From Nitratidesulfovibrio termitidis HI1 (GTDB taxonomy: Bacteria; Desulfobacterota; Desulfovibrionia; Desulfovibrionales; Desulfovibrionaceae), in contig NZ_KI632512.1 in assembly GCF_000504305.1 (NCBI RefSeq), positions 275,307 through 339,306 of the forward strand: a DNA stretch of 64,000 nucleotides, written 5' to 3'. Of this stretch, positions 38,584 to 62,890 are shown one piece after another. Both the position numbers and the translations under genes were made by a program. Every line of letters starts with the position of its first letter. Position 1 is the stretch's first letter. Below the pieces are notes generated by a model, which did no database searches, was not told the DNA's origin, and saw nothing but the letters and a program-made list of their open reading frames with translations.

Positions 38584-40554
38584 ATGCAACGACTTCTCAA
38601 GCAATACCGCAACGACGTGGGTGATGTGCTGGCCGAGGCCGACGTGCATCTGCTGGAACTGGAAGTGGCGGGTGAACGCGCCGATCCGGAACTGCTGGGC
38701 CGTCTGTCCCGCCTGGTGCACGGGCTGCGCGGCGCCGCGGGCCTGTTGGGGCTGGATGGCGCCGGTCGCATGGCCCGCCTGCTGGAGGCGGCCTTTGAAC
38801 TGGCCCGTGACGGCTCGCTGCCGCTTTCGGCGCCTGCCGTATCCGCGCTGGAAGGGTGCATGCGGGCGCTGGCCGGGCTTTCCGGCGTGGTGGAGACGGA
38901 TGAGAGCGCCGAAGGCCCTGCCGGGGACGCGCCACCCGAGGGTGCCGGGCAGTATCCGGCGGTGTGCGTTACCGGCGATCCCAATGCGCTGGACCGGGAT
39001 GATTCGCCCGCCGGGCGGGCCCTGCTGCGGCTGGTGGCCCTGTTGGACGACGCGCTGCCTGAACCGTTGCAGGGCACCGCACGCGAGCATTTGTCGATTT
39101 GCGACCCCGATGGGCATTGTCTGTTCGATCTGCACGGCATCGATGTGCTGCGCGCCCGGCGTGACGGGCTGTACGTGTACGTGGTGGAGTTTGGCGGCTC
39201 CGACGACCTGCTGCGCAAGGACCTGAGCCCGCTGGGGCTGCTGGCCTTCCTGCGCAAGAGCGGTCTGGTGCTGGATGCGCGCTTTGTGCCCGGTCCGGGC
39301 TGCGCTGGGCCGGGAACGCCCGGTTGCGGATTGCACGTGCTGTACGCGTCGATCCTGGAGCCGGACCTTGTGAACACGGTGTTCCAGGTGGAATCGGCCA
39401 GGGTGCACCCCATCGACGTGGAAAGGGTGCGGCGCGGCGAACCGGGCTGGCAGCGCGCACCGGCGCGCAGCGCCACCATGGCGGTGATGGCGGCGCACAA
39501 GGCGCCCGACGCCGACAGCATCGACGACCTGATGCGCCAGTACGACACGGCCATGCGGAAACTGCGGGAGGATACCATGAGCAACGGCACCGACGACGAA
39601 AGCAAGTTTTCCGGCACGGTGGTGGACCCCGATGCCGAGGAGCGCAGGCTGGCGGAACTGGAGGCGGAGCTTGCCGCGGGCATGGACGCCCTGGCCCTTG
39701 ACGATGACGGAGACGGAGCAGGGGGCGATGACGCCTCGCGGCGTGCCCTGGCCTCGCTGATCGGCGGCATGGTGGGTGACGATGCGGTGCCGGGCGGTTC
39801 CGGGGACGTTGCGACTGCCAGTTCAGGCGACGTTGCGCCGGGCGGTTCCGCTGACGTTGCGCCGGATGACGACGACGCCGATCTGTTCGCCGATGCCGAT
39901 GCCGAGACAGAACAGGGTGATTCCTCCGATCAGATCGAGCCCGAGGGAGCAGCGCCGACCGGGTTTGAGGCCGAGCATCCCGACATGCGTGCGGGGATGG
40001 TGGACGACACGGCTTCCGCGGGCTCCCTTGCACCAAACGCTTCCGACGATCCTGACGTGGACCCCGACGCCGACCTGTTCGCCGACAGCGGCGAAGCTCC
40101 CGATCTTTCGTACCTCGACGCCGCATTGGCCGACAGGCCCGTTGACGGCGTGGCCCTGGATCTCTCCGCCGGGGTTGCCAGCCGCACCGTGGCCGGGTTC
40201 ACCGTGCGCGCCGCCGATGGCGATGCTTCATTTCAGGGAGGCGCAAAGGGCGTGCTGGTGCTGTCCGGCGAGGTGACCATCGAACGCGGGGCCGACCTGC
40301 GCGAGGCGCTGCTGGACGTGCTGGGGAGTTTTGCGGCGGTGCGCATCGACATGTCCGGCGTCACGGCGGCGGACCTGACCCTGGTGCAACTGCTGCAGTC
40401 GGCAGCCGTCACCGCGCGTTCGCGCGGGGTGGACCTGGCGACCACCGGCCCGGTATCCGAAGCCGTGGCCGAGGCGGCGCGCCGCACCGGGCTGGATGCT
40501 CCGGGCATCCGCCGCGTGGGACTGGAAAAGTTGTTGCCGATCGAGTGCACGTAG
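38584..40554 (+). CDS. Hpt/CheA-P2-like protein fused to a C-terminal STAS domain
   Basis: 656 residues. Residues 1-105 resemble a CheA P1/Hpt bundle with LVHGLRGAAGLLG (candidate phospho-His near 46). Residues about 120-285 recall the region after P1 in CheA (DLLRKDLSPLGLLAFLRKSG followed by ILEPDLVNTVFQVE). There is no kinase dimerisation, ATPase or CheW domain. Residues about 330-530 are an acidic Asp/Ala/Gly linker with a 24-bp tandem repeat (39784-39855). Residues about 545-656 are a STAS domain (GVLVLSGEVTIERGADLREALLDVLGSFAAVRIDMSGVTAADLTLVQLL). The fusion suggests a link between chemotaxis-like phosphotransfer and a partner-switching output. The P2 assignment is tentative. Confidence 0.75.
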   Translation: MQRLLKQYRNDVGDVLAEADVHLLELEVAGERADPELLGRLSRLVHGLRGAAGLLGLDGAGRMARLLEAAFELARDGSLPLSAPAVSALEGCMRALAGLSGVVETDESAEGPAGDAPPEGAGQYPAVCVTGDPNALDRDDSPAGRALLRLVALLDDALPEPLQGTAREHLSICDPDGHCLFDLHGIDVLRARRDGLYVYVVEFGGSDDLLRKDLSPLGLLAFLRKSGLVLDARFVPGPGCAGPGTPGCGLHVLYASILEPDLVNTVFQVESARVHPIDVERVRRGEPGWQRAPARSATMAVMAAHKAPDADSIDDLMRQYDTAMRKLREDTMSNGTDDESKFSGTVVDPDAEERRLAELEAELAAGMDALALDDDGDGAGGDDASRRALASLIGGMVGDDAVPGGSGDVATASSGDVAPGGSADVAPDDDDADLFADADAETEQGDSSDQIEPEGAAPTGFEAEHPDMRAGMVDDTASAGSLAPNASDDPDVDPDADLFADSGEAPDLSYLDAALADRPVDGVALDLSAGVASRTVAGFTVRAADGDASFQGGAKGVLVLSGEVTIERGADLREALLDVLGSFAAVRIDMSGVTAADLTLVQLLQSAAVTARSRGVDLATTGPVSEAVAEAARRTGLDAPGIRRVGLEKLLPIECT

Positions 40555-48207: not shown

Positions 48208-49107
48208 CTAGCCACCGCCGATGAGCTGCATGGCCATCTGCGGCAGCGAGTTGGCCTGCGAAAGCATGGCCACGGCGGACTGGGTGAGGATCTGGTTGCG
48301 CACGAATTCCGTCATTTCCTCGGCCACGTCCACGTCGGAAATGCGCGACTCGGAGGATTGCAGGTTTTCCGCCTGGATGGTCAGGTTGCTGATGGTGTTC
48401 TCCAGGCGGTTCTGCAGGGCGCCGAGCGCCGCGCGAATCTTGTCCTTGGAGATGATCGCCTGGTCCAGGGCGGTCAGGGCGTTCTGGGCGGCCGACTGGG
48501 TGGAGATGGTGTAGCCCCCGGCCCCGACGCCCGTGGCGGACGCGTTGCCGATGCCCAGTTGCGACGCCGTGGCCCCGCCGATCTTGATGTAGTAGTAATC
48601 CTCGTTCGAATCGTTGCCGGTGCCGAAGTGGATCTTCAGTTCGCCGGTCTGGCGCAGCCCCGAGCCGTTGTGGGTACCCGAAAGGGTGCCGTCCAGCAGG
48701 TGGATGCCGTTGAAGTCCGTGGCGTTGGCGATACGGGTGATTTCCGAAGCCATGGCCTGATATTCGGATTCGATCATCAGGCGCTGGTCGGAGTTGTAGG
48801 TACCCGTGGCCGCCTGTTCGGCCAGTTCCTTCATGCGGATGAGCTTTTCGTCGATGATCTGCAGCGCGCCGTCGGCGGTCTGGATCATCGAGATGGCGTC
48901 GTTGGCGTTACGGATGCCCTGACGCATGGTGGAAATATCGGCCCGCATAAGTTCGCGAATGGCGAGGCCTGCGGCGTCGTCGGCCGCAGTGCCCACGCGC
49001 AGACCCGAGGAAAGGCGGCGGGTGGACGTTGCCAGGCGACCGTAGCTCTCGTTCAGGTTACGAGAGGCGTTCAGCGCCATCATGTTGTGATTGATGACCA
49101 AAGACAT
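48208..49107 (-). CDS. Flagellin
   Basis: 299 residues. Conserved D0/D1 N-terminus (SLVINHNMMALNASRNLNESYGRLATSTRRLSSGLRVGTAADDAAGLAI) and C-terminus (SRISDVDVAEEMTEFVRNQILTQSAVAMLSQANSLPQMAMQLI) frame a short variable middle of about 100 residues, so this is a small flagellin. GGAGG lies eight bases upstream of the ATG. A near-perfect sigma-54 promoter sits 37-52 bases upstream of the start. The filament would be exported and polymerised under the cap. Two glycosyltransferases at 55-58.6 kb are candidates for its modification. Confidence 0.96.
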   Translation of the reverse strand: MSLVINHNMMALNASRNLNESYGRLATSTRRLSSGLRVGTAADDAAGLAIRELMRADISTMRQGIRNANDAISMIQTADGALQIIDEKLIRMKELAEQAATGTYNSDQRLMIESEYQAMASEITRIANATDFNGIHLLDGTLSGTHNGSGLRQTGELKIHFGTGNDSNEDYYYIKIGGATASQLGIGNASATGVGAGGYTISTQSAAQNALTALDQAIISKDKIRAALGALQNRLENTISNLTIQAENLQSSESRISDVDVAEEMTEFVRNQILTQSAVAMLSQANSLPQMAMQLIGGG

Positions 49108-49143: not shown

Positions 49144-49159
49144 AGCAATGTTGGTGCCA
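49144..49159 (-). promoter_or_regulatory. Sigma-54 promoter of the flagellin gene
   Basis: The minus strand reads TGGCACCAACATTGCT, matching the -24/-12 consensus TGGCAC-N5-TTGC with exactly ten bases between GG and GC. Transcription would begin near 49133, leaving a 25-base leader with a good ribosome site. An enhancer-binding activator must drive it. Which one is not shown here. Confidence 0.88.
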
Positions 49160-50318: not shown

Positions 50319-51956
50319 CTAACGCTTCATGTTCACGACGGTTTCAAGCATGGTGTCCGTTGTGGTGATGACCTTGCTGTTGGACTGGAAGCCGCGCTGG
50401 GTGGTGATCATCTGCACGAACTCGCGGGCAAGGTCCACGTTGGACTGTTCCAGCGAGTTGGAGTTGATGGAGCCGTACCCGTTGGCGTTGGCCGGACCCG
50501 CCAGCGCGTCGCCCGAGGCGCGCGTTTCGGAGAACAGGTTGCCCCCTTCGCGCCGCAGGTTGGTGGGACTGGTGAAGTCGTACAGGGTGATCTGGTACAG
50601 GTCCAGGATGACCCCGTTGGAGTACCGGCCGTGCACGATGCCGTCCTGGTCCACGGTGATGTTCTGCAAAAAGCCGAAGGTGTAGCCGTCCTGCTTCTGG
50701 AAGATCATGGACGACGAGCCGCCGTAGCTGGTCATGGACGTGGACTGGCGTTCGCCCTGCGCGCCCAGCCCGCCGAGGTTGCTGGCGTTGCTGCCGATGG
50801 CGGCGGCGCTGGCCGGGGCGCTGGCCCAGGAGTTGCTGAGGTTGCGCAGGCCGAAGTTCAGTTCCATCAGGTACGGTTCGGCTTCATCGGGCACCGTGGG
50901 CGAGGTGTAGCTGGCGTTGGCGACGCCCGAGAAGTTGGCCACGAACAGCGGGTAACCGTTGTTGGAGAAGGTGGTGGGCACCCAGTTGTTCATGTCCTTC
51001 AGCGAACCGGTGGCGCCGCTGGCGATGGTGAAGGCGGTCATGTCCGTGAGCTGGCCGGAGGTGTCGAAGGTCAGCGTGCCGGTCATCAGGATGCCCGCCG
51101 CCGAGGTGCCCGCGAAATCCAGGCCGTTGACCGAGCGCAGGTCGTCCGAGGGATTCATGGTGACCATGTATTCCCAGTAGCGCTTGCCGCTGGCGGCGTT
51201 GGCAACCGTGTCGGTGGCCACCTGGTCGAAGTAGACGGTCAGCTCGTGCGAGGTGCCGCCTTCGTCATAGACCTTGATGGTGGTCTGATAGGCAAAGCGG
51301 CTGTCCGCCAGAGGCGTGTCTGCCGAGCCGTCCCAGTTGTTGAACACCGAGAAGAACGGGTCGGTGGCGTTGACCGACTTGTCGCCGCCGTCGCGCGCGT
51401 CGAGGTTGTGGGCCGAGGTGATGGTGGACGTATGCTGCGGCTCGGCCGTGAAGCCGTCGAGCTTGATGTCCTTGGGCGAGCCCGCCCCCTTGATCTGCGA
51501 GGTGGTGGTGGTCACCTGCGCGGTGGAGGTGGACAGCGACGGACGGGCCTTTTCGATTTCCCAGCCTTGCAGCACGTAGCCGTGCGGGTCGACCAGGTAG
51601 CCGTCGTTGTCGAAGCGGAAGTTGCCCGCACGGGTGTAGTACGAGGTTTCCTGCCCCTTGGGCCGCACCTGGAAGAAGCCCTTGCCGCCGATGGCAAGGT
51701 CCGTGGCCTCGTTGGTGGTTTCAAAGGCGCCCTGGCTGAAGTCGCCGAAGATGGCGCCGATGGACACGCCGCGACCCACCTGGCTCACCCCGGCCGCGCT
51801 GTAGACGTCCTGGTTGATGAAGTCCTGGAAGTCCATGCGCGAGCCCTTGAAGCCCACGGTGTTGACGTTGGCGATGTTGTTGCCGAGAACGTTCATCTTC
51901 TCGCCGTGGGCCAGCAGTCCCGAAACGCCGGTCCACATACTTGCCGTGACACTCAT
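50319..51956 (-). CDS. flgE: Flagellar hook protein FlgE
   Basis: 545 residues. N-terminal rod-type motif ASMWTGVSGLLAHGEKMNVLGNNIANVNTVGFKGSR, TDLAIGGKGFFQV and the C-terminal NVDLAREFVQMITTQRGFQSNSKVITTTDTMLETVVNMKR are those of FlgE. AGGAGG lies six bases before the ATG. It forms the hook outside the outer membrane after export by the flagellar secretion system. It is the last gene of fliK-flgD-flgE. Confidence 0.96.
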   Translation of the reverse strand: MSVTASMWTGVSGLLAHGEKMNVLGNNIANVNTVGFKGSRMDFQDFINQDVYSAAGVSQVGRGVSIGAIFGDFSQGAFETTNEATDLAIGGKGFFQVRPKGQETSYYTRAGNFRFDNDGYLVDPHGYVLQGWEIEKARPSLSTSTAQVTTTTSQIKGAGSPKDIKLDGFTAEPQHTSTITSAHNLDARDGGDKSVNATDPFFSVFNNWDGSADTPLADSRFAYQTTIKVYDEGGTSHELTVYFDQVATDTVANAASGKRYWEYMVTMNPSDDLRSVNGLDFAGTSAAGILMTGTLTFDTSGQLTDMTAFTIASGATGSLKDMNNWVPTTFSNNGYPLFVANFSGVANASYTSPTVPDEAEPYLMELNFGLRNLSNSWASAPASAAAIGSNASNLGGLGAQGERQSTSMTSYGGSSSMIFQKQDGYTFGFLQNITVDQDGIVHGRYSNGVILDLYQITLYDFTSPTNLRREGGNLFSETRASGDALAGPANANGYGSINSNSLEQSNVDLAREFVQMITTQRGFQSNSKVITTTDTMLETVVNMKR

Positions 51957-52021: not shown

Positions 52022-52825
52022 TTAGCTGTCGCTATCCGTGCCGCTGTCGGAACCGTCTCCGGAATCGTTTCCGGAATCATCTTCGGAATCGTCGCCGCCG
52101 GTATCGTTGTCGCCGGTACTGGTATTGGGCGCCACGATTTCGGAGACGTTGCTGAAGGCGATGTGGCGGCCGTCCGCCAGGCTCAGGTAGGGTTCGTCGT
52201 CCACCTTGACCACGCCCGACACCTGGCCGGAAACCTGGGTGGTGATGTAGACGGACTTGCCGTCCGTGCCTTCGCCGTACATGGCGACCGCGTAGACACC
52301 GTCCGGCACGATGGTGCCCTGGTAATCCTTGCCGTCCCACTTGTACTGGTAGGTGCCGGGCTGCTTGGCGCCCATCAGTTCCGTGCGCACCAGGTTCATT
52401 TCGCTGTCGTAAATGTTGATGTAGCCGTTGTTCACCTGCTCCTGCACCGTGAAGTACACCGTGCTGACGGAGTTGACCGTCGCGCCCGTGCTGTCCTTCT
52501 GCGAGGTCTTGCTGATCTCGTAGCCGCTGGCGGTCACTTCCTTGCCGATGTAGCCCACGGCGGCGGACATCTGCTGCTGCTTGGCGCTGGCGTTCAGGTC
52601 GGTGATGCCGGTGGAGATGTTGGTGAGCTGTTCAAGGCTGGTGAACTGCGCCAACTGGGCGACGAATTCCTTGTCGTCCATGGGGTTCAGCGGGTCCTGA
52701 TGGCTCAGCTGGGCCACCAGCAGGTTCAGGAACGCCTGCTTGTCCAGTTCGTCGTTCTTGGTCTTGGCGCCAAGGTAGCTGTTGAATGTCTGTTCGGCCT
52801 GGCCGATGACGGGGCTGGCTGCCAT
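52022..52825 (-). CDS. flgD: Flagellar hook cap/scaffold protein FlgD
   Basis: 267 residues. The conserved N-terminus includes [46 protein letters not shown]. The FlgD tudor/Ig-like domain follows ([28 protein letters not shown]). The last about 30 residues are an unusual Asp/Ser/Gly/Glu tail ([19 protein letters not shown]), encoded by repetitive TCCGGAATCGTTTCCGGAAT-like DNA. Family members normally end without it. It lies nine bases after fliK. Confidence 0.94.
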
Positions 52826-52834
52826 GGTGGCCTC

Positions 52835-54763
52835 CTATGCGATGAGGTCGAGCCCGGAGGCGGTAAGAGTTGCCGGGCGTCCGGTGGAGGCTGCCGTTGC
52901 GGCGGCGTCCACGGCCTGCATGCCGGTGTCGTCGTCCCCGTCCCGAAGGCGGCGCAGGCGGCGGTAGCGTTCGCGCTCCGCGCTGCGGGCCTGCTGTTCC
53001 TGGTTGGCGTTGTGCTGGGCCGCATCCTGCCAGGCTTGCGAGAACGAGTTGTCCTGCAACTGGGTCTGCACTTCCAGCCGGTCCACCTTCAGCCCCTGCT
53101 GTTCCAGCGCGGTGCGCAGCACGTGCAACTGGTCGTTGAGGGCCTGCGCGGTCTCGGTGCGGTCGGGCCGGATGGTGGCGTTGACCTCTCCGTTGCGCAC
53201 GGAAAGGGTCACGGTCACGTTGCCCAGTTCACCGGGGTCAAGCTTCATGGTCAGCTGGCGGGTGCCGTCCTGCATGGAGGTGAGAATGCCCCGCTCAAGC
53301 TGGGCCGCCGCCTGTTCGGAAAGATAGGGGGTCAGGGCCTGGCCCTGCCGCTGGGCCGCGCTGGCGGCATTGGCCGCACCGGAAGCGCTGGCAGAGGCGT
53401 CGGCCATGCTCTGGGCCGCGCCGCTGAGGGACGGGCTGACGTCGATCTTGCGCAGCAGTTCGGCCCACGGGTCGCTGCTGCCGCCGGAAGCGGGCCGACC
53501 GTGCTGGTCCTGCTGCCAGGCGGAACCCTTGCCGTCGCCCGACTGCGAAGATTGCTTATCCAGTCCGAAGGCCTGCGCCTGGGCATTGCCCTGCGCCACC
53601 TGCGCCTGCTGGCTGTTGGCCCCGCCGTTGTTGCTCCCGTTGCCGTTATGCAGCGGTACGTTCTGCTGCATGGCGTCACCCGCCTGTGCGGCATGGCGCG
53701 GATCGGACAACGGACCGGCATGCGCCTGCGTGCTGCCCCCGGTGTGCATCAGGCCGGACTGGCGGGTCTTGCCCGCGTTGGCCGATCCGCCATCGTGGCG
53801 TTCCGCATCCAGCGCGGGGGCCACGCCGCTGCCGTTGCCCTTGCCGGTGGCGGATTCACGAATCAGCACCTCGCTGCGCTGGGCGGCACGGTCACTGCGC
53901 CGGTCGGACTGCTCTATCCGCGTGGCCGACTTCTTGGCCGCCTGCAACACCGGGTCGAGTGCGGACCCAAGGGCCGAGGCCAGATTGCGGTCGGCCTGCT
54001 CGCGCGCGGCCATTTCCTGCCCGGCGGGCACCAGAACGGACTTCAGCCCGGCGGCCGTGGTGGAAATTTCGGTCTGCCCGGCGAACAGCGTCTTCATGGC
54101 GGCCAGCACTTCGGGCGAGAGACGCAGGCCCTTGGCCATGGCCTCCAGTTCCTCAACGTTGACGTCGATGGCGTCGCCGTCGGTCTTGCTGCTCAGCTTG
54201 CTGCTGACGGCCTTCCACACCGCGTCCGTGTTGCCCGCGTCCATCTGGGCCAGCATGTCTTCCGCTTCATCGGGCAGCATGCCGATCTTTTGCAGGAACT
54301 GCTTGGCGTCCAGGCGCTGGTTGCCGTTAAGGGACGTGACGGTGGAGCCGTCGGCGTTCAGGTTGGCGTAGGGGCCATCCTTGCGCAGGGCCGAGATGAC
54401 CTGGCCCAGCGAGTAGCTGCCGGGGGTGGAGGCCATCTGGGTGAGGCGTTCCAGCCGATCGGGCGAAACGCCGCTCTTTTCCAGCTGGTTCCGCAGCGCG
54501 ATGACGTCCTGATAGGAAAGGCTGATCTGCCCCGGCGCGGTGAGCACGCCGCCGTCCTCGCCCCTGCGCACCTTGCCCTTGGCTTCCGTGGCCGCATTGG
54601 CGGCGGTGCGGAGGGCGGTGGCGCCCGCGCCGGAAACGGAGCGCGGGCTCGCCTTGTCCGCGAGCACGGAAGCGAAGTCGAGGGTGCTGGCAGTGACCTT
54701 GGGGCGTCGCGTCACGTCGGACGGCGCCTTTTCGGTCTCGGGAAGGAAGGGAAAAATATGCAT
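52835..54763 (-). CDS. fliK: Flagellar hook-length control protein FliK
   Basis: 642 residues from MHIFPFLPETEKAP, with AAGGAG nine bases upstream. The long middle is Gln/Ala/Ser/Gly-rich and poorly conserved, as expected of a molecular ruler. The C-terminal Flg_hook domain is clear (LTMKLDPGELGNVTVTLSVRNGEVNATIRPDRTETAQALNDQLHVLRTALEQQGLKVDRLEVQ). It ends in an Arg-rich segment and a short Ala-rich tail. It heads the fliK-flgD-flgE operon. Confidence 0.93.
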   Translation of the reverse strand: MHIFPFLPETEKAPSDVTRRPKVTASTLDFASVLADKASPRSVSGAGATALRTAANAATEAKGKVRRGEDGGVLTAPGQISLSYQDVIALRNQLEKSGVSPDRLERLTQMASTPGSYSLGQVISALRKDGPYANLNADGSTVTSLNGNQRLDAKQFLQKIGMLPDEAEDMLAQMDAGNTDAVWKAVSSKLSSKTDGDAIDVNVEELEAMAKGLRLSPEVLAAMKTLFAGQTEISTTAAGLKSVLVPAGQEMAAREQADRNLASALGSALDPVLQAAKKSATRIEQSDRRSDRAAQRSEVLIRESATGKGNGSGVAPALDAERHDGGSANAGKTRQSGLMHTGGSTQAHAGPLSDPRHAAQAGDAMQQNVPLHNGNGSNNGGANSQQAQVAQGNAQAQAFGLDKQSSQSGDGKGSAWQQDQHGRPASGGSSDPWAELLRKIDVSPSLSGAAQSMADASASASGAANAASAAQRQGQALTPYLSEQAAAQLERGILTSMQDGTRQLTMKLDPGELGNVTVTLSVRNGEVNATIRPDRTETAQALNDQLHVLRTALEQQGLKVDRLEVQTQLQDNSFSQAWQDAAQHNANQEQQARSAERERYRRLRRLRDGDDDTGMQAVDAAATAASTGRPATLTASGLDLIA

Positions 54764-55158
54764 GCCGGGGCTCCTTGCAGCCATTGGATTACAAGGACCG
54801 TTCCAAAACTGTACGCGACGTGATTTCAATGAGTTACGGCATGCAGATGCGCCCCGCCCGGCAAGGGCTGCCGTACGTTTGCGGTGGGGAAGAAGGGCTT
54901 GTTTGCACTTCTTGACCATTCTTGATGATCGGAGAGGGCGGGGCGAATGCGCGGGGGCAGCCCGGAACTGAGGGGACGTGCCGGGGGGCGTGACAAGAAC
55001 AGTGGCGGGAGACATGCCGGGAATGGGGCAGATGCACGGCTCCGGGCGCACTCCATACGTCAGGGGCATGCGCAGGAGGCAGAGCCACCAGTGACCCTGT
55101 TGCGGATCGGGCCGGTCGTTCGTTCAGGATGGAGAGGCAGGCGCGGGCGGTGAGGGGA
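54764..55158. other. 395-base gap upstream of fliK
   Basis: It holds a weak sigma-54-like element near 54789-54807. The rest is GC-rich with no gene recognised. It separates the glycosyltransferase genes from the hook operon on the same strand. Confidence 0.45.
54789..54807 (-). promoter_or_regulatory. Imperfect sigma-54 promoter candidate for fliK-flgD-flgE
   Basis: The minus strand reads TTTGGAACGGTCCTTGTAA. The -24 GG and the spacing of ten are kept, but the -12 GC is GT and the -24 block has A for C. Hook genes are often sigma-54-dependent, which makes the position plausible. Confidence 0.4.
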
Positions 55159-56715
55159 TCAGGCCGTGAGGGCGGCCAGAGCTTCCACCAGGGCCAGGGC
55201 CTCGGCCCAGGCGGCGGGTGTGGCGTCGGCGTTCTGCACGGACATGTGCAGGTAGCCCGTGAGGGGCCGCAGCATGGGCGGATGGCAATGCCAGAAGTCG
55301 GGCGGCAGGGTGGCCTGGCCGGACCCCAGCCCGCGCAGGGCACGGGCCAGATCGCGTCCGAGGCCCGACAGGCCACGGCGCAAGGCTTCGGCCAGGCGGG
55401 GCGAGGCCGCGGCAAGGTCGACCCAGGCCCGGCGGGCGGTGGCTTCGCCGTGCAGGCCGAGCCGCCATGCCCAGAAGGCCTTCCAGAACTGGCCGAACAG
55501 GCGGCGGGGTACAGCCTGCTGCCCGTGGTCGGAGGTAGCCAGCGGGACGAGGTCGAACAGGCCCAGCGCGTCACGTCCGGTACGCAGCAATTCCAGGCCC
55601 GGCAGGCGCAGCCGGGCAAGGCGCGAGGCGGCGGTGGCTCCATTCGCGCCATCCAGGGCCGGGGCGGCGGCGTCCTGTTCGCGCAGCAGGGCCTGCACCA
55701 GCGAGGACACTCGCGCGGGGTCGAACCTGTCGCGGCACAGCACGGAAGGCTGGGTGCACCGCCAGCAGCCCACGCAACTGATGGTGGCGCGCAGCACATG
55801 GTGGCCGGGGGGAAAGGGGGCGGTTTCCCAGGCGTTCACCGGACCCATGGACAGGTTCAGGGTGGGGGTCTGGGTCCAGGCGGCCACGTGCATGGGGCCG
55901 GTGTCCGGCGTGACCAGCAGGCGCAGCGAACGGGTGAAGGCCACCAGTTCCGGCAGGGTGAAGCGGCCGCACAGATTCAGGGCCGGGGTATTGGCGCGGC
56001 GGGCCACGTCGGCCCCCAGCGCCGCCTCCGCCGGGCCGCCCAGCAGGACGGGCTTCAGCCCGCGCCGCAGCAGGTCGCGGGCCAGCGCGGCCCAGAACGG
56101 GGCGTTGGGGCATTTTTCCGGCTCGCTGGCCCCCAGGAACAACCCCACCCGTTGCGGGTCGCGCCCCTGATGTTGCGGCGCGGGCCAGTCGGTGCCGCGT
56201 ATGCGGCGGGCGGGCACGCAGTCCAGCGCGTTCAGGTCGGCCCAGTGGAACAGGTTGTGCCGGTTGTTGTGCACCAGCGAGGTCCGGTACAGCTGCCAGC
56301 GCCCGTGCACGTAGGTGGTGCGGTCCGCACCCTTCCCCGTGCCCCCACCGGCAAGATATGGACCGAAATGGGCGTCGGCATGCAGTTGCCCGGCCAGCGC
56401 GGCGGCCTCTGTCCGGTGGCTGAGGTTGACCACCAGGTGGTAGCGGTTCTGGCGCAGCCGGTTGGCCGCATCGTACGGAAAGAATACCGCCTCCGGCCCG
56501 ATGGGCATCAGCCCCTTGAAGAATGTTTCCTCGCCCACCACCCACAGCGGGCGGCGCGGGTGTTCCGCCCGCAGCCACGCCAGCAGCGGAAAGGTCAGCA
56601 CCAGGTCGCCCATGCGCTGCATCTGCAACACCAGAATGGGGGCATCGGGGGCCTTGTCCGCCTGTGCGTTGACGGGCGTCGTGGCGGGTGCCGGGGGCGT
56701 GGGGGCGGTGGTCAT
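55159..56715 (-). CDS. Family 9 glycosyltransferase (heptosyltransferase-like)
   Basis: 518 residues if starting at MTTAPTPPAPATTP. The ribosome site is weak and the Met of MQRMGDLVLTFPLLAWL is an alternative. The GT9 features are MGDLVLTFPLLAWLR at the N-terminus, GLFLGASEPEKCPNAPFWAALA, LLGGPAEAALGADVA and LVTPDTGPMHVAAW, the usual sugar-nucleotide-site strand. A C-terminal extension of about 170 residues beyond the normal GT9 fold includes CVGCWRCTQPSVLCRDRF. It transfers heptose or a related sugar. Placement between fliK and another glycosyltransferase suggests flagellin modification, although lipopolysaccharide remains possible. Confidence 0.82.
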   Translation of the reverse strand: MTTAPTPPAPATTPVNAQADKAPDAPILVLQMQRMGDLVLTFPLLAWLRAEHPRRPLWVVGEETFFKGLMPIGPEAVFFPYDAANRLRQNRYHLVVNLSHRTEAAALAGQLHADAHFGPYLAGGGTGKGADRTTYVHGRWQLYRTSLVHNNRHNLFHWADLNALDCVPARRIRGTDWPAPQHQGRDPQRVGLFLGASEPEKCPNAPFWAALARDLLRRGLKPVLLGGPAEAALGADVARRANTPALNLCGRFTLPELVAFTRSLRLLVTPDTGPMHVAAWTQTPTLNLSMGPVNAWETAPFPPGHHVLRATISCVGCWRCTQPSVLCRDRFDPARVSSLVQALLREQDAAAPALDGANGATAASRLARLRLPGLELLRTGRDALGLFDLVPLATSDHGQQAVPRRLFGQFWKAFWAWRLGLHGEATARRAWVDLAAASPRLAEALRRGLSGLGRDLARALRGLGSGQATLPPDFWHCHPPMLRPLTGYLHMSVQNADATPAAWAEALALVEALAALTA

Positions 56716-56773
56716 GACCGTGGTGTGGGCCTTGGTATGGGGGCAGATTTGGGGGTGGCGTGGCCAGGTGGGG

Positions 56774-58633
56774 TTATCTGGCGCGGGCCGGGCCGAAGAT
56801 GCGGCGCATGTGGTCCAGCAGCGAACGCAGCCGGTGCTCGTAGGTGTGTTCGGCCAGGATGCGCCTGCGCGCGGCGGCCACCACGCGGGCACGCTCTTCC
56901 GGGTGGTCCAGGTAGCGGCGCAACAGGTCGTCGGCCTCTTCCGGTTCCGCGTAGCAGACCACTTCGTGCCCCGGTTCGAACAGGTTTTCGATCTGGTCGC
57001 GCCAGTCGGTGAGCACGAACGACCCGGTGGCGGGCACGTCGAACACCCGCTGGTTTACCGCGCCCTTCATCTGCTTGCTGGTGCAGTTGAAGTTGATTTC
57101 CGACAGGGGGTAAAATGCGGGCAGTTCGGTGTAATAGTTGATTTCCGGATGCAGCCGCCAGCCTTCGGGCGTGGTGCGGAACACCTTGCGCCAGCCCTTG
57201 TCGCCCACGATGAGCGGGGCAAAGGGCAGGGCGCGCGCCACGCAGGCCGCGCGGTACTGGCGGGTGGCCTCCCAGGTGAGCATGGTCTCGTAGCACAGCC
57301 GCCGCTCGGCGTCGCCCATCGCGTCACGCCCATTCTTCGCATCCAGCCCTCCCAGGCCGTCGTACACGGCGGCAAGATCCGGCTGGTACGCCCGCAGGTA
57401 GGCCCCCACGGACCGCTCGCCGTGCGCGCCGAAGCTTGCCGCCACCTCGCGGTACGAGCGCAGCAGCGCGGCGGGCAGTTTGCCTGCCTTCATGCGGTGG
57501 GCCACCTTGTAGACCATGGAATTGCCCACGAACGACACCCGCGCCCGCCACGGATGGCGAGCGGGCGGCGGCGATGCGGGCGGGGCGAAGCGCACCGGGT
57601 CCGTGCCCAGGGGCAGGTAGGCCACATGCTCGAAGCCCAGGTCGCGCAGCGAGGGCAGGTTGTCCGCGTCCCAGGTGAAGATGGCCGTCCATGGGCTGAC
57701 GATGCGCCGGTACAGGTAGAGGATCAGATGCGGGTTGTCCACGAACCACGAGGCCAGGGGCAGGCGCAGCTTTTCCAGCAGGTCGGTCAGCACGCCTTCG
57801 CGGTCCACGCCCAGGTGGTTGATGGTAAAGGCGAAGTCGGGCCGGAATTCCACCACCGCGCGCAGCAGCCTTTCCACGAATTCGCCCCGGCCCACCTCGT
57901 CGTCATCCAGGGTCAGCAGGTGGTAGGGCACGCCCAGGCGCTGGCAGGCGGTGACTATTTCGCCCATCAGGAAATACTGGCTGGTGATCAGCAGCATGCG
58001 CGGCAGGGCGGCGGGGTCCGCGAATTTGGGGTAGGCGGCGCGTTCCCAGAAATTGTAGCGGGCGCTGGCGGACAGCACGTCGCGCAGGCGGGCGTAATGG
58101 GCGCGGTCCAGGCGCAGGTAGAAGGGGTGCGGCAGGGGCAGCAGTTGCAGCCCGCCGTGCTCGTACTGCCAGCGGGTAAGGGTGCGCAGGGCCGCGTCCG
58201 CGTCGTCGTCGGTCACCCACAGGATGCGTCTGCCGCGAGCATCGTCGGCGTAGCGTTCACGCAGACGGGTGGCGGCAAGGATTTCCGTGGAGCGGTCCAC
58301 CACGGCCACCGGGCCAGGGTGCAGTTCCAGCAGGCGGTCCAGGGCCGCGCCGGTGCCCGCGCCCAGAAGGACGGGCAGGACGGGTGGGACGGGCGGAGCG
58401 GGCGTGGACGCCGTATCCGCACGCAGCTTTTCGTAAGGAGCCAGCAGGGCCAGTTCACGCGCCGGGCCGCCGGGGCCCAGCATGGTCATGCTGCGCCCGT
58501 CCACGGTCACTTCCACGTCGCTGACGGGCGCATCGTCGGCGCCCGCACCCAGCGGGCGGGGCGAAGGCAGCACGTGGGCTGACAGCCTTGGGCGGGGTGC
58601 GGCCTTGGGCGGGGTAGCGTCAACTGGCGGCAT
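56774..58633 (-). CDS. CgeB-type glycosyltransferase
   Basis: 619 residues. An N-terminal about 190-residue Pro/Ala-rich and methyltransferase-like region precedes a core resembling the DUF3880 plus Glyco_trans_1_2 arrangement of CgeB proteins. Indicative stretches are [68 protein letters not shown] and [30 protein letters not shown]. In several flagellated anaerobes such proteins lie among flagellin glycosylation genes. It precedes the GT9 gene by 58 bases. A strong ribosome site is not visible. Confidence 0.82.
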
Positions 58634-58717: not shown

Positions 58718-59911
58718 TCAGCGTTGGCTGGGCCCGTGGCTGGCCCCGTGGCTGGCCCCGTGGCTGGCCCCGTGACTGGCCCCGTGACTGGGCGGAAGGG
58801 CGGGCGATTCCACCGCCAGTTCGCCGTCGCGCAGCACGATGCGCACGTCGCGCAATTCCTCGCGCACCTCCATCCACGATTCCTCGATGGAAATTTCCAC
58901 GCCGGGCATGATGCGTCCGGGCACCACCAGGCGGCAGCGCTCCGCTATGGGGCCGCCGCGCTTCAGGTCTTCCCACAGCGCGGCACGCTGGCGCAGCAGG
59001 CGGTCCATTTTCTTCAGCGCGGCCTCCAGGCGGCGCACCGGTTCTTCCTTGCCCGCCGGGGTGTCCGCGGCCACGGCCTCGTAATGGATGATGCGCTGGC
59101 GCAGATCGCGGATGTTTTCCTCCAGCCGGGTGATCTTGCGGAATTTGAACGGGTCGTACCCCAGGTTGACCTTGGTGGGGGTGCCCTGAGCGCCGCCCAG
59201 CTGGTTTTCGATGTACACCACGCCCGCGCCGTGCACCGTGCCGCCCTGCACGCGGTCCTTCACGACAAGGTTTGCCCCGGCGTAGATGCGGCAGTGCAGG
59301 GCAAAGCGTTCGATGTACATGTTGCCGTGCGAGCGCAGTTCCGCGGTTTCGGCAAAGGGCACGCGCAGGGTGTCGCCCGCGTCGAGCAGGCAGCCCTTGC
59401 CGCCCTTGATGCCGCTTTCGCAGGCAATGGCCCCCCGCGCACGCACCACCGCGCCTTCCACCACTCCCTTGATCAGGATGTTGTCCGCCTGGATTTCGAA
59501 ACCGGGTTTCACGTCGGCATGAATGGCCATGTCGCCCACGAAGAAGATGTTGCCGGTGTGGAAGTCCACGTCGCGGCGCACGTTGAGCATCTTCTTCACC
59601 GTGATCAGCCCGTCGTGATAGAAGACGTACCCGTTGGCGTCGGCCACCACCCGGTTCGGCGAGCCGGGGTCCACGTCGCAGTTGGGACCGCAGGGCAGTT
59701 CGGCGGGCGGGGCGTCGTACACGTAGCGCGGGTCCAGCGGACCTTCGCCCGCTTCTTCCAGCGGCACCAGTTCCGCCAGCACCTGCCCCTTCACCACGTT
59801 CTGGACGTAGCCGAGGTTGTAGCGGTCGATGTTGCCAGCATCGTCCGCCTTTGGCTTCAGGTGCATGTAGTCGAAGTCGGGCTCGAAGTGGTGGCGCAGG
59901 TAATATGGCAT
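58718..59911 (-). CDS. DUF342/FapA-family protein
   Basis: 397 residues from MPYYLRHHFEPDFDYMHLKPKADDAGN, with GGAG eight bases upstream. The central right-handed beta-helix of DUF342 is visible (NVRRDVDFHTGNIFFVGDMAIHADVKPGFEIQADNILIKGVVEGAVVRARGAI). A coiled coil follows (ITRLEENIRDLRQRIIHYEAVAA). The family has been named FapA, flagellar assembly protein A, after work on control of flagellation in Vibrio. The C-terminus carries four tandem SHGA repeats of 12 bp. It lies after the RsbV-like gene and before the glycosyltransferases. Confidence 0.85.
   Translation of the reverse strand: MPYYLRHHFEPDFDYMHLKPKADDAGNIDRYNLGYVQNVVKGQVLAELVPLEEAGEGPLDPRYVYDAPPAELPCGPNCDVDPGSPNRVVADANGYVFYHDGLITVKKMLNVRRDVDFHTGNIFFVGDMAIHADVKPGFEIQADNILIKGVVEGAVVRARGAIACESGIKGGKGCLLDAGDTLRVPFAETAELRSHGNMYIERFALHCRIYAGANLVVKDRVQGGTVHGAGVVYIENQLGGAQGTPTKVNLGYDPFKFRKITRLEENIRDLRQRIIHYEAVAADTPAGKEEPVRRLEAALKKMDRLLRQRAALWEDLKRGGPIAERCRLVVPGRIMPGVEISIEESWMEVREELRDVRIVLRDGELAVESPALPPSHGASHGASHGASHGASHGPSQR
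58724..58790 (-). repeat. 12-bp tandem repeat encoding SHGA units
   Basis: Five or so copies of a 12-bp unit (plus-strand CCCCGTGGCTGG) encode the C-terminal SHGASHGASHGASHGPS of the DUF342 protein. The unit keeps the frame. Confidence 0.92.
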
Positions 59912-60032
59912 GTGGCGCTCTCCGTGGGCTGTGCCTGCGGCGCCGCGTGGCGCGCCGCGTATCCGGACTGCGGGCGGGGAAAGACCGTGTTCCTGCCGTG
60001 GCCGTGCTGCACGTTTTCCGTGCCTGCGGGCA

Positions 60033-60377
60033 CTAGTCCGGCAGCAGGGCCAGCAGATCGTCCTCGTCGCCAAGAATGGGGAAGAACCCGGTGAGTTGCG
60101 CTGTTTCCATGGTGTGCACGGCTTCGGCGGTGGGCCGGTACAACAGCAGGCGGCGTCCCATGGACCGCGCCTTGGTGCTGGCGGCCACCAGCGTGCCCAG
60201 CCCGGAGCTGTCCAGAAACGACACGGCGCCCAGGTCCAGCACCACGTCGGACACGCCCTTGCGGGCGAACAGCCGTTCCAGTTCGTTGCGGACCTCCGTG
60301 GCGTTGGCCAGGGTCAGTTCGCCCGTCAGCGCCGCGACAAGGATGTTTCCGTGATCGTCAAGCTCGAGGTGCGCCAT
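60033..60377 (-). CDS. STAS-domain anti-anti-sigma factor (RsbV/SpoIIAA type)
   Basis: 114 residues. The phosphorylatable Ser is in VSFLDSSGLGTL. Dephosphorylated RsbV-type proteins bind and sequester the kinase RsbW. The ATG lies inside the upstream kinase gene (52-base overlap) with GGAGG five bases ahead, which implies tight coupling. The kinase and phosphatase are the two genes upstream. Confidence 0.93.
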   Translation of the reverse strand: MAHLELDDHGNILVAALTGELTLANATEVRNELERLFARKGVSDVVLDLGAVSFLDSSGLGTLVAASTKARSMGRRLLLYRPTAEAVHTMETAQLTGFFPILGDEDDLLALLPD

Positions 60378-60832
60378 TGTTCCTCCGGGATGGCCAATTG
60401 TAGATGCAGGGTGTTGCCGTCCGGGCCGGCATCACCCGTCACGGCATCGCACAGGCAGGCGATGATGCGCAAGCCCCGTCCGGACGTGGCTTCCGCTGCC
60501 GCCCCTGCCATGGTGGATGTGCCGGATTTACCGGAAGGGTCAGACAGGCCGGGCGGGGGCAGCGGGCAGGCCGCGCAGCCGCGCCCCCAGTCGGTGACGG
60601 CCAGTTCCATGCCCATGTGCGGATTCACCGTCAGGCGCACCCGCAGCGGGCCGGGCTGCCCTTCCGGGTAGGCGTGGCGCACCACGTTGGCGCATGCCTC
60701 CGCCGTGACCAGTTCCAGCGGGTGCACCAGTGTCGGCACGGCCAGGTAGGCGGCCATGGTGGCGGCAATGCCGCGCACGAAGGGGCGGTAGGTTTCGCGC
60801 AGGGCGGTGGTGGAGAATTCGTAGGTGTGCAT
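60326..60832 (-). CDS. Serine kinase/anti-sigma factor of the RsbW family
   Basis: 168 residues from MHTYEFSTTALRETYRPF, with GGAAG six bases upstream. The GHKL ATP-site motifs are visible: N-box VTAEACANVVRHAYP, G1 VTDWGRGC and G2 SGRGLRIIACLCD. A Gly/Ser/Pro insert sits between G1 and G2. It would phosphorylate the RsbV-like protein and may bind a sigma factor or another target. No sigma gene is adjacent. Confidence 0.9.
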   Translation of the reverse strand: MHTYEFSTTALRETYRPFVRGIAATMAAYLAVPTLVHPLELVTAEACANVVRHAYPEGQPGPLRVRLTVNPHMGMELAVTDWGRGCAACPLPPPGLSDPSGKSGTSTMAGAAAEATSGRGLRIIACLCDAVTGDAGPDGNTLHLQLAIPEEQWRTSSLTITETSLSRR

Positions 60833-60843
60833 GGCGCTTCCGT

Positions 60844-62349
60844 TCAATCGGCCCCGGCGGGTTCGTCTGGCCTGACTTGCTCGTCTGGCCTGACCTGTTC
60901 GTGCGGCCTGACCACATCGCCCGTGCCGGGGGCGTCGCGGCGTATCCACAGGGCGGTCACGTCGTCACGGAAGGGGGGCATGCCGCCCGCCGCATCGCGC
61001 AGGGCCGATTCCATGGCGGCCAGCACATCGCTGCCTGTGCGCAGGCAGGGTTCGGTCAGAGTCAGAAACCGTTCCGAGCCAAGGTGCGCCCCACCGGGCG
61101 CCGTCCAGTCGTGCAGGCCGTCGGTGAACAGCAGCAACTGGCTGCCGGGCGGAAAGGGGCGTTGTTCGGCCGCATACTCGGCGTTGAAGAACCCCAGCAG
61201 CGGCGCGTTGGAGGGCAGGCGGGTGATCTGCCCGTCGCCGCCGCGCAGCAGGGCGGGGCAATGCCCGGCGTTGACGTATTCCAGCGTGCCCGTGGCAAAG
61301 TCGATGTCCCCCGCGAACAGGGTGACGAAGTCCGGTTCGCCGCCGATGATGTCCACCAGGTGCCGGTTGATGCGCCGCACGGTCTCCGTCAGCGGCTGGG
61401 GCGGCATGCCGTCGGCGTGGCGGGCGGCGGCGCCGTCGTTCTGGGCGCGCACCAGGGTGCGCACGATGCTCATGAGAAAGGCGGCGCGGGCACCGTGGCC
61501 GGACACATCGGCTATGACCACCCGCAGCACCGGTCCGTCGGTTTCAGGCGAGGCAACCGGCGCTGACGGTGCGGCCTGCGCCAGAGGGGCTGGCCGTGCC
61601 GGGGACGCAGGGCACACGGCAACGCCGGAAGGGCGCGGGGGCAGCAGGAAGTAGTCGAAATAGTCGCCGCTGGCATCATCGGAGGGGCGGTACAGGCTTT
61701 CCACGTGCAGGCCGGGCAGATACGGCGAGGACGAAGGCAGCAGGCGCATCTGCAATTCGGCCACGCGGGCCATTTCGCGGGTCAGCCGGTCGGAGTAGGC
61801 GCGCAGTTGGCGGGCCATGCGGGCCTGCCGGGCGCCCACGGACACACGGGCATCCAGTTCCAGCGGTTCCAGGGGCAGGCGCAGCGCGTCGTTGGCGCCC
61901 TGGGCCAGCGCATCCGCCCGCAGGGCATGGTCGTCCGGTTCGGTAAGCACGATGAGGAACACGTCCTCGTCGCGGCGTACGGCGCGGATGGCCCGCACCA
62001 GGTCGAGCACGGGGCGGTGACCGCCTTCATGCGCGGCAGGCGCCAATGTGGGGGGCGAGGGAGGCGGTACGGGATCGTAGGGCGGCGGCGGGGGCGCGGC
62101 AAAGTGCGGGGGCGTGCGCGTCAGGCCGGGCCGGGCGGGATGTGCCTGGCCGGAATGTGCCTGGTCGGGGTCGGGCAGGGCGGGGTCGATGATCACCACA
62201 TGAGGGCGGCGTGCGGCGTGCACATCCAGCGCCTCGGCCAGGGTGGCGGCGCGCAGCACGGTGCGGCCCGTGCCGGGCAGGCGGCGCAGCGCCTCGCGCG
62301 TCAGCGGCGAGGGTGCGGCGATGAGAAGGGTGATGTCATCCGCCGCCAT
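60844..62349 (-). CDS. PP2C-type phosphatase (RsbU/SpoIIE) with a degenerate, split receiver domain
   Basis: 501 residues. The N-terminal 180 residues fold like a receiver, but the usual acidic pair is AA (LLIAAPS) and the conserved Lys is Arg (LRLPLEP). A Pro/Ala/His-rich insert of about 50 residues splits the domain right after the phospho-acceptor strand VVIIDPALP. A coiled linker leads to the SpoIIE phosphatase domain (SDDASGDYFDYFLL, VIADVSGHGARAAFLMSI, LEYVNAGHCPALL, LLFTDGLHDW, FRDDVTALWI), with metal-binding Asp residues present. It would dephosphorylate the RsbV-like protein. Gene order phosphatase-kinase-antagonist is that of a partner switch. Its start overlaps the end of dtd by 14 bases. 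A tandem repeat lies at the C-terminus. Confidence 0.88.
   Translation of the reverse strand: MAADDITLLIAAPSPLTREALRRLPGTGRTVLRAATLAEALDVHAARRPHVVIIDPALPDPDQAHSGQAHPARPGLTRTPPHFAAPPPPPYDPVPPPSPPTLAPAAHEGGHRPVLDLVRAIRAVRRDEDVFLIVLTEPDDHALRADALAQGANDALRLPLEPLELDARVSVGARQARMARQLRAYSDRLTREMARVAELQMRLLPSSSPYLPGLHVESLYRPSDDASGDYFDYFLLPPRPSGVAVCPASPARPAPLAQAAPSAPVASPETDGPVLRVVIADVSGHGARAAFLMSIVRTLVRAQNDGAAARHADGMPPQPLTETVRRINRHLVDIIGGEPDFVTLFAGDIDFATGTLEYVNAGHCPALLRGGDGQITRLPSNAPLLGFFNAEYAAEQRPFPPGSQLLLFTDGLHDWTAPGGAHLGSERFLTLTEPCLRTGSDVLAAMESALRDAAGGMPPFRDDVTALWIRRDAPGTGDVVRPHEQVRPDEQVRPDEPAGAD
60862..60915 (-). repeat. 18-bp tandem repeat at the end of the phosphatase gene
   Basis: Three 18-bp units (60862, 60880, 60898), the third slightly diverged, encode the repeating VRPDEQ units near the C-terminus. 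The frame is kept. Confidence 0.88.
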
Positions 62350-62890
62350 GGGGTGGTCGCCGCTCCGGAAAGAGGTCGTCGTCGCTCAGCCAGATGGTCA
62401 CCGGCCCCCAGTTGACGAGGGAGACGTCCATGTCGGCCGCGAAGATGCCACAGCGTACCCGCCCCGGCAGGCGTGCGTCAATATCGGTAGCCAGTTGTTC
62501 GAACAGGCGCTCGGCCACGGCGGGCGGCGCGGCGGCGGAAAACGACGGGCGGCGGCCCTTGCGGCAGTCCGCGTGCAGGGTGAACTGGGGCACCAGCAGC
62601 AGTTGGCCCAGGGTGGCGGCGGAAGCGATACCGCTTTTTTCCGCCTCCCGCATGCTGGCGGGCACGGCCCATTCGCGCAGGCCCACGTTCATCTTGCCCG
62701 CATCGTCCGGGAACACGCGCAGGTCCAGCAGCTTGTCGATCATGCCCGCCCAGCGGGGCTCGCCGGGCAGCGCGTCGGTGTCGCGCGGGCCAAAGCCCGC
62801 CAGCACCACCAGCCCCGGCCCGATGGCGGCCACGGTCTCGCCGTCCACCGCCACCGATCCCCGGCGCGCCCGTTGCAACAGCAGTCGCAT
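62336..62890 (-). CDS. dtd: D-aminoacyl-tRNA deacylase
   Basis: 184 residues against about 145-150 for the family. It removes D-amino acids from mischarged tRNA. Conserved blocks are MRLLLQRARRGSVAVDGE, KLLDLRVFPDDAGKMN, QFTLHADCRKGRRPSFSAAAPP and the Gly-Pro motif NWGPVTIWL. Two oddities: the SQxTL active-site motif reads PQFTL, and about 20 extra residues (PASMREAEKSGIASAATLG) precede it. The C-terminus is also slightly extended. GAGGA lies six bases upstream of the ATG. Confidence 0.92.
   Translation of the reverse strand: MRLLLQRARRGSVAVDGETVAAIGPGLVVLAGFGPRDTDALPGEPRWAGMIDKLLDLRVFPDDAGKMNVGLREWAVPASMREAEKSGIASAATLGQLLLVPQFTLHADCRKGRRPSFSAAAPPAVAERLFEQLATDIDARLPGRVRCGIFAADMDVSLVNWGPVTIWLSDDDLFPERRPPHGGG

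Follow-up and report, generated by a model that had tools for sequence, protein, structure and literature searches.

In Pseudomonas aeruginosa, according to the available text of the papers concerned, the fused protein HsbR acts with HsbA in the HptB pathway to control FlgM-FliA and RpoS (PMC6482189, PMC8256260), and HsbR is laid out as receiver, PP2C phosphatase and kinase (PMC6482189). For RbaY-RbaW-RbaV of Rhodobacter capsulatus, the sections available report that a cognate sigma factor was not found, that RbaV is the determining output and that an rbaW mutant is non-motile (PMC3999984); for Bacillus cereus, the accessible part of the source has RsbY phosphorylated by RsbK (PMC9912610). We analyzed a comparable module, encoded by rsbU-, rsbW- and rsbV-like genes, in a 64,000-nucleotide (nt) stretch of the Nitratidesulfovibrio termitidis HI1 genome (hereafter the window, whose positions serve as coordinates; all genes of the block lie on the minus strand). 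We favor, with moderate confidence, a sigma-less switch resembling HsbR-HsbA and RbaY-RbaW-RbaV, whose target would be encoded elsewhere and which would have at least one output needing no flagella. A literature search over titles and abstract openings of the top matches found no paper on a Desulfovibrio partner switch; in the available text of PMC13023848, which mentions Desulfovibrio and RsbW, the latter occurs only within a cited Clostridioides title.

Switch genes and the state of the receiver

Open reading frames and Pfam give the minus-strand order dtd-rsbU-rsbW-rsbV-fapA-gtA-gtB-fliK-flgD-flgE. The rsbU-like gene (60844–62349) encodes, according to Pfam, alignments, AlphaFold2 and Foldseek, a degenerate receiver with a disordered insert (approximately 61840–62349, as placed by alignment), a long helix and a PP2C (SpoIIE) phosphatase (Pfam E 2.9e-35, with the receiver match below threshold). 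The rsbW-like gene (60326–60832) encodes a HATPase_c_2 kinase (8.8e-19), and the rsbV-like gene (60033–60377), recognized by Pfam and alignment, a STAS antagonist (3.1e-19) with a D-S-S-G motif and the Ser57 codon at 60207–60209. The start of rsbW was revised to the ATG at 60832, most likely the true one, which leaves an 11-nt gap after rsbU instead of an overlap; dtd and rsbU overlap by 14 nt and rsbW and rsbV by 52 nt, and 121 nt separate rsbV from fapA. An earlier note on this DNA had described the genes as overlapping or nearly so in the order RsbU-RsbW-RsbV, followed on the same strand by fapA, two glycosyltransferase genes and fliK-flgD-flgE and unaccompanied by a sigma factor gene, and the Pfam domains bear this description out (its span, 58718–62349, takes in fapA besides the switch genes).

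The absence of a sigma-70 family gene extends to the whole window, the genome's four such genes (Sigma70_r2 matches) all lying outside it. A tblastn search of the 80 loci read with these four proteins gave no sigma match at the rsbU loci; its sole match was a FliA-like gene in L190, a flgE region of genome G052 without rsbU. This makes a sigma target linked to the switch genes unlikely.

The three predicted proteins have the makings of a partner-switching module: a PP2C phosphatase with its metal-binding aspartates, a HATPase_c_2 protein with an N box and a STAS protein with the serine of the DS motif. The PP2C aspartates D229, D281, D410 and D462–D463 are invariant in 25 of 25 aligned RsbU rows, the N-box Glu and Asn are kept in 29 of 29 RsbW rows (row L039, taken from a wrong frame, was dropped; in its correct frame it scores E 6e-45), and the phosphorylation-motif Asp-Ser is kept in 32 of 32 RsbV rows. 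Across the genome, a single contig of 4.26 Mb, no SpoIIE-type match other than RsbU was found. In the RsbU receiver, both in the window and in four same-genus loci (5/5), the acidic pair is replaced by AP and the conserved Lys by Leu, while the phospho-acceptor Asp55 is kept; the other rows with a complete receiver are mostly canonical, with other losses in L040, L042, L059 and L071. Because receiver residues required for phosphorylation are replaced throughout the genus loci, the phosphorelay input to the Nitratidesulfovibrio RsbU has probably been lost. In the AlphaFold2 model of RsbU (mean predicted local distance difference test score 79.9), strands and helices alternate as in a receiver; the model also has an insert of low confidence, a long helix and the PP2C part. 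Foldseek against the PDB placed P. aeruginosa RssB first, as did a profile search with RsbU, and the PP2C domains of Rv1364c and SiaA lower down; the superposition is loose over the full length (root-mean-square deviation about 14) and tighter for the phosphatase domain alone (about 4).

Conserved neighborhood, losses and retentions

We read the RsbU loci of 54 genomes of the Desulfovibrionales, which were the top RsbU matches and not a random sample (labels in G, L, f and g denote genomes, loci, families and genera). Presence of RsbU was called with profile A1 at E ≤ 1e-100 (80 genomes); ordinary E-values admit receiver-only and paralogous PP2C matches. G040 and G043 were excluded from the 54 and from the 78 genomes counted as positive below, their copies being judged a second paralogue (that of G040 by its clade in the tree, that of G043, which lies outside that tree, by identity and score), and G050 was retained in the 78 though its copy sits in a side clade with the second copy of G055. 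For G235, a second copy was read and counted among the 15 genomes without neighbors; by coordinates, its main copy shares a contig with gtA and flgE. Close relatives with named records are, among others, Nitratidesulfovibrio liaohensis, N. oxamicus and Desulfovibrio sp. A2.

Within the stretch read, 39 of the 54 genomes have at least one same-strand neighbor out of fapA, motA, motB, gtA, gtB, flgD and flgE, and dtd adjoins rsbU in 43, eight of them without a flagellar neighbor. The fullest order seen was dtd-rsbU-rsbW-rsbV-fapA-motA-motB-gtA-gtB-fliK-flgD-flgE. The block, whose conservation the earlier note had proposed to check, recurs in four families (f1, f3, f4 and f5), and 25 of the 39 genomes that have it include motA (in L036, motA and motB were confirmed by Pfam). 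Since the order recurs across families, it reflects more than chance, and the switch sits in an old, ancestral flagellar neighborhood widely shared in the sulfate-reducing Desulfovibrionales. In the window and in four complete same-genus loci, motA-motB is missing between fapA and gtA, as seen from the gap between these genes and the lack of a motA match; motA-like genes are present elsewhere in the window genome. Family f6 (G050 and G052–G055) has a flagellar neighbor in none of five stretches read, though FlgE is present in G052–G054. Loci outside the order (Nitrospinaceae and others) have no block neighbors except stray weak matches.

The composition of the switch itself varies. Among the 39 genomes having rsbU and rsbW side by side, the two are fused into one protein in 10; in seven genomes (f4 and f6) the locus has rsbU-rsbV but no rsbW, and in two (G089 and G091) rsbW-rsbV but no rsbU. 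In genus g33, with strong RsbU matches in 17 genomes, RsbU groups with L051 (support 94/76) inside the block clade, and in all four loci read its gene adjoins fliI-fliH-fliG-fliF (Pfam); rsbW and rsbV were not found at these four loci. In f5 genomes (L074, L083, L085 and L086), receiver-PP2C proteins of a second family occur, with adjoining STAS genes; the tree separates this family from that of the block with full support.

Flagella and switch were also found apart. Twenty flgE regions were read; among them, G018, G088 and G090 keep dtd-fapA-motA-motB-gtA-gtB-flgD-flgE with no rsbU, rsbW or rsbV between dtd and fapA; profile A1 found no full-length RsbU orthologue in G018 (best E 9.5e-38), G088 or G090 (none at 1e-25). 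Conversely, G055 (100% complete) and G033 (92%) have dtd-rsbU-rsbW-rsbV with downstream genes of non-flagellar appearance, and no FlgE at 1e-20, no FlhA and no FlgM was found in either. Their sigma-70 matches, RpoD-like and RpoH-like only in G033 and RpoD-like, RpoH-like and a short third in G055, include none close to the FliA-like protein of the window genome (the names RpoD, RpoH and FliA are labels assigned in the present analysis). G034 (82% complete) has dtd-rsbU-rsbW-rsbV and no FlgE, FlhA or FlgM, its contig ending soon after rsbV; these absences are weak because no sigma-70 gene at all was found in G034. G035, in which FlgE is missing, was considered as aflagellate and rejected, as FlhA was found with a FliA-like gene near it, and was taken as flagellated.

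The pattern is that of a dedicated regulator of flagellar assembly in neither direction. Since some relatives have the switch and no flagella (G055, G033 and G034, the last less complete) and others have flagella and no switch (G018, G088 and G090), the target is probably not flagellar assembly alone. Between G033 and G034, the ratio of nonsynonymous to synonymous substitution rates (dN/dS) is 0.135 for rsbU, 0.050 for rsbW and 0.163 for rsbV, at dS of 0.30–0.44; from these low values, the three genes are still constrained in this pair, provided that flagella were lost before the two genomes split.

Over 348 genomes of the order, scored with cut-offs of our own, flgE was called in 290, gtA in 261 and flagellar-type RsbU in 78 (G040 and G043 dropped). 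The glycosyltransferase gene gtA was present in 259 genomes with flgE and 2 without, and absent from 31 with and 56 without (Fisher p 1.7e-39); RsbU was present in 74 with flgE and 4 without, and absent from 216 with and 54 without (p 0.001), in tests that treat genomes as independent and ignore phylogeny. Fragmented assemblies lose some gtA calls (G080 and G081), and G035 stands in these tables among the genomes lacking flgE, as one of the four with RsbU. The switch is thus tied to flagella loosely and gtA closely. That gtA follows flgE over the 348 genomes suggests a conserved flagella-linked glycosyltransferase with a role in flagellar glycosylation.

Neighboring genes and transcription signals

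Upstream of the switch, dtd (62336–62890) encodes a D-aminoacyl-tRNA deacylase (Pfam Tyr_Deacylase 1.9e-40, and synteny). Downstream lie fapA (DUF342; 58718–59911, ATG 59911; Pfam beta-solenoid 3e-40), gtA (56774–58633, exact start unsure; Pfam DUF3880 and Glyco_trans_1_2, with a phyletic pattern that tracks flgE) and gtB, a glycosyltransferase of family 9 by Pfam (55159–56715, with a probable ATG at 56715 in an open frame of 55159–56892). The hook genes, each with its Pfam match, are fliK (52835–54763, ATG 54763; FliK), flgD (52022–52825; FlgD) and flgE (50319–51956; FlgE_D2 2.7e-21).

A sigma-54 promoter-like site, TGGAACGGTCCTTGTA (54790–54805, minus strand), precedes fliK. It is present in all five genus loci, one of which has G to T within the spacer; the genus form, TGGAACG[G/T]TCCTTGTA, lies 27 nt upstream of the fliK start in each, with a conserved repeat upstream. 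Three matches to the sigma-54 pattern were found in the window against 1.2 expected, and because a single match would be no surprise, the evidence for the site is its place and conservation. Among 46 sequences scanned, some of which stop short of fliK, a match between gtB and flgD occurs in 11, and only two matches fall between dtd and gtB; the mononucleotide-shuffled control gave 8 matches in 859,784 nt. We take fliK-flgD-flgE to be the counterpart of DVU1445-DVU1443. For D. vulgaris Hildenborough, DVU1445-DVU1443 appears among the flagellar units in the available text of a study on sigma-54 (PMC4641369). Because fliK-flgD-flgE has its own conserved sigma-54 site, the hook genes may be transcribed apart from the switch and need not be co-transcribed with it; same-strand adjacency does not amount to one operon. 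The sigma-28 pattern has no exact match in the window and no convincing site over the operon; allowing up to three mismatches gives 10 matches in the window against 4.2 expected, one of them in the switch genes on the wrong strand (61323, plus). A perfect sigma-54 consensus, TGGCACCAACATTGCT (49144–49159, minus strand), lies just upstream of a flagellin gene (48208–49107) and is also found in the four same-genus loci.

Elsewhere in the genome, a second pair of STAS and HATPase_c_2 genes, at G000:C1:2403.1-2403.8 kb within L250:8468-9813 (G000:C1:2402.5-2403.8 kb), is followed by a gene for a protein with a transglycosylase SLT domain. Its HATPase has matches in 36 of 59 family genomes and none in the same-genus genome G082, and with that absence the pair was rejected as a fixed partner of RsbU. 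A sigma-70 gene of extracytoplasmic function (ECF)-like appearance, with regions 2 and 4, lies between flagellin-like and response regulator-like genes (L251:7454-8221; G000:C1:2125.7 kb). Within the window, a 656-amino-acid protein (38584–40554, plus strand) has an N-terminal Hpt and a C-terminal STAS domain.

Candidate targets and comparison with known switches

In the reading we favor, RsbW would phosphorylate RsbV on Ser57, the phosphatase domain of RsbU would dephosphorylate RsbV-P, and the balance between RsbV and RsbV-P would determine the partner to which RsbV binds, RsbW or a different one. RsbV would most likely pass the output on to a target whose gene lies elsewhere; in favor of RsbV as carrier, seven genomes keep RsbU-RsbV without RsbW and two keep RsbW-RsbV without RsbU at the locus. 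From the receiver's loss of phosphorylation residues, the Nitratidesulfovibrio RsbU would probably be controlled by binding, or be constitutive. In flagellated hosts, the effect would most likely fall on whether cells are motile or sessile, with FlgM-FliA or a diguanylate cyclase as possible routes, and the action would not be on hook assembly only. An HsbA-like route via FlgM-FliA is possible by analogy, since FliA-like and FlgM genes are present in the window genome; it cannot be the only output, as G055 and G033 keep the switch without flagellar genes. FapA may also be a partner, as fapA adjoins the switch and, in the available text on Vibrio vulnificus, HubP recruits FapA to the pole, tying flagella to glucose (PMC12918733). 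That the output would not be only flagellar follows from the retention of the switch in G055, G033 and G034, with low dN/dS between the latter two.

Several points weigh against this reading. The motile-or-sessile output, unlike the observed gene order, domains, residue conservation, losses and retentions, is drawn from the neighborhood and from analogy. G033 (92%) and G034 (82%) are metagenome-assembled genomes, and their RsbU is close in the tree to that of the flagellated G038; because these branches are short, the loss of flagella may be fairly recent. The tie of RsbU to flgE would also fit a dedicated flagellar role plus a few relics. As to RsbV as carrier, G061–G063 have rsbU-rsbW with no strong rsbV nearby (in G061 there is a weak STAS match beyond gtB).

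A possible, if doubtful, elaboration is an order-wide switch coupled to dtd, whose RsbV, linked to no sigma factor and in some lineages to no kinase, would set an output, non-transcriptional or by second messenger, that flagellated and aflagellate sulfate reducers share; the Nitratidesulfovibrio phosphatase, freed from a phosphorelay by decay of its receiver, would now listen to something else, perhaps a protein partner on the pseudo-receiver.

It is unlikely that RsbW acts as a conventional anti-sigma factor on a sigma factor (RpoH-like, ECF, FliA or RpoD) whose gene lies elsewhere. The best PDB sequence matches, B. subtilis RsbW for RsbW (weak, E 0.0046) and SpoIIAA for RsbV, the four sigma-70 family genes in the genome and the control of RpoS by HsbR in P. 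aeruginosa, as given in the available text of PMC6482189, would fit such a role; it is countered by the lack of tblastn sigma matches at every rsbU locus read, by G033, which lacks flagellar genes and shows only RpoD- and RpoH-like factors, and by the seven genomes retaining RsbU-RsbV without RsbW at the locus. We likewise consider it improbable that the arrangement was frozen by ancestral accident, in which case a regulator of general stress or of the envelope would be bound to dtd by its position and functionally unconnected with motility: the adjacency of dtd and rsbU in 43 of 54 genomes, eight of them without a flagellar neighbor in the stretch read, and the losses in both directions agree with an accident, whereas the persistence of the neighborhood over four families and the moved g33 copy beside another flagellar cluster do not. 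Direct control of flagellar assembly, with RsbV or RsbW binding FapA, MotA/B or export or hook proteins, is improbable too, as the block in four families with motA in 25 of its 39 genomes, the relocated RsbU beside fliI-H-G-F in four of four loci and flgE in 74 of the 78 module genomes are set against flagellar neighbors kept without the module (G018, G088 and G090), the module kept without detectable flagellar genes (G055, G033 and G034), flagellar neighbors in 0 of 5 f6 genomes read and hook genes with their own sigma-54 site. The earlier note had suggested that the target may be flagellar assembly rather than a sigma factor; on the same evidence, this is supported in part: a link to motility is probable, and published sigma-less switches affecting motility agree with it, but flagellar assembly is probably not the sole target.

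The comparative set amounts to a collection of natural strains, with flagella and no switch, with a switch and no flagella, and with fused, split and kinase-less forms; such strains let the targets of sigma-less partner switches be probed directly.

Among described systems, the Bacillus SigB module (RsbY/RsbU-RsbW-RsbV) shares domain families and likely chemistry with the present one; the sigma gene in the operon that marks the SigB type was found neither in the window, which has no sigma-70 gene, nor in the relatives' rsbU loci, and the genus receiver is degenerate. BtrU-BtrW-BtrV of Bordetella is, in the available text of PMC8256260, a partner switch likewise tied to an export apparatus, that of type III secretion rather than flagella. 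RbaY-RbaW-RbaV, as far as its source was available, has the same REC-PP2C phosphatase, HATPase kinase and STAS protein with no sigma gene nearby; however, rbaY lies apart from rbaV-rbaW and the system regulates a gene transfer agent, whereas here the three genes stand together with dtd. HsbR-HsbA, in the text available, shares the receiver-PP2C-kinase and STAS antagonist domains, and 10 of the related genomes have the fused form. The window instead has the module split into three genes, a degenerate receiver that keeps its Asp but is probably no longer phosphorylatable in any of the five genus loci, and dtd, fapA, glycosyltransferase and hook genes as its neighbors.

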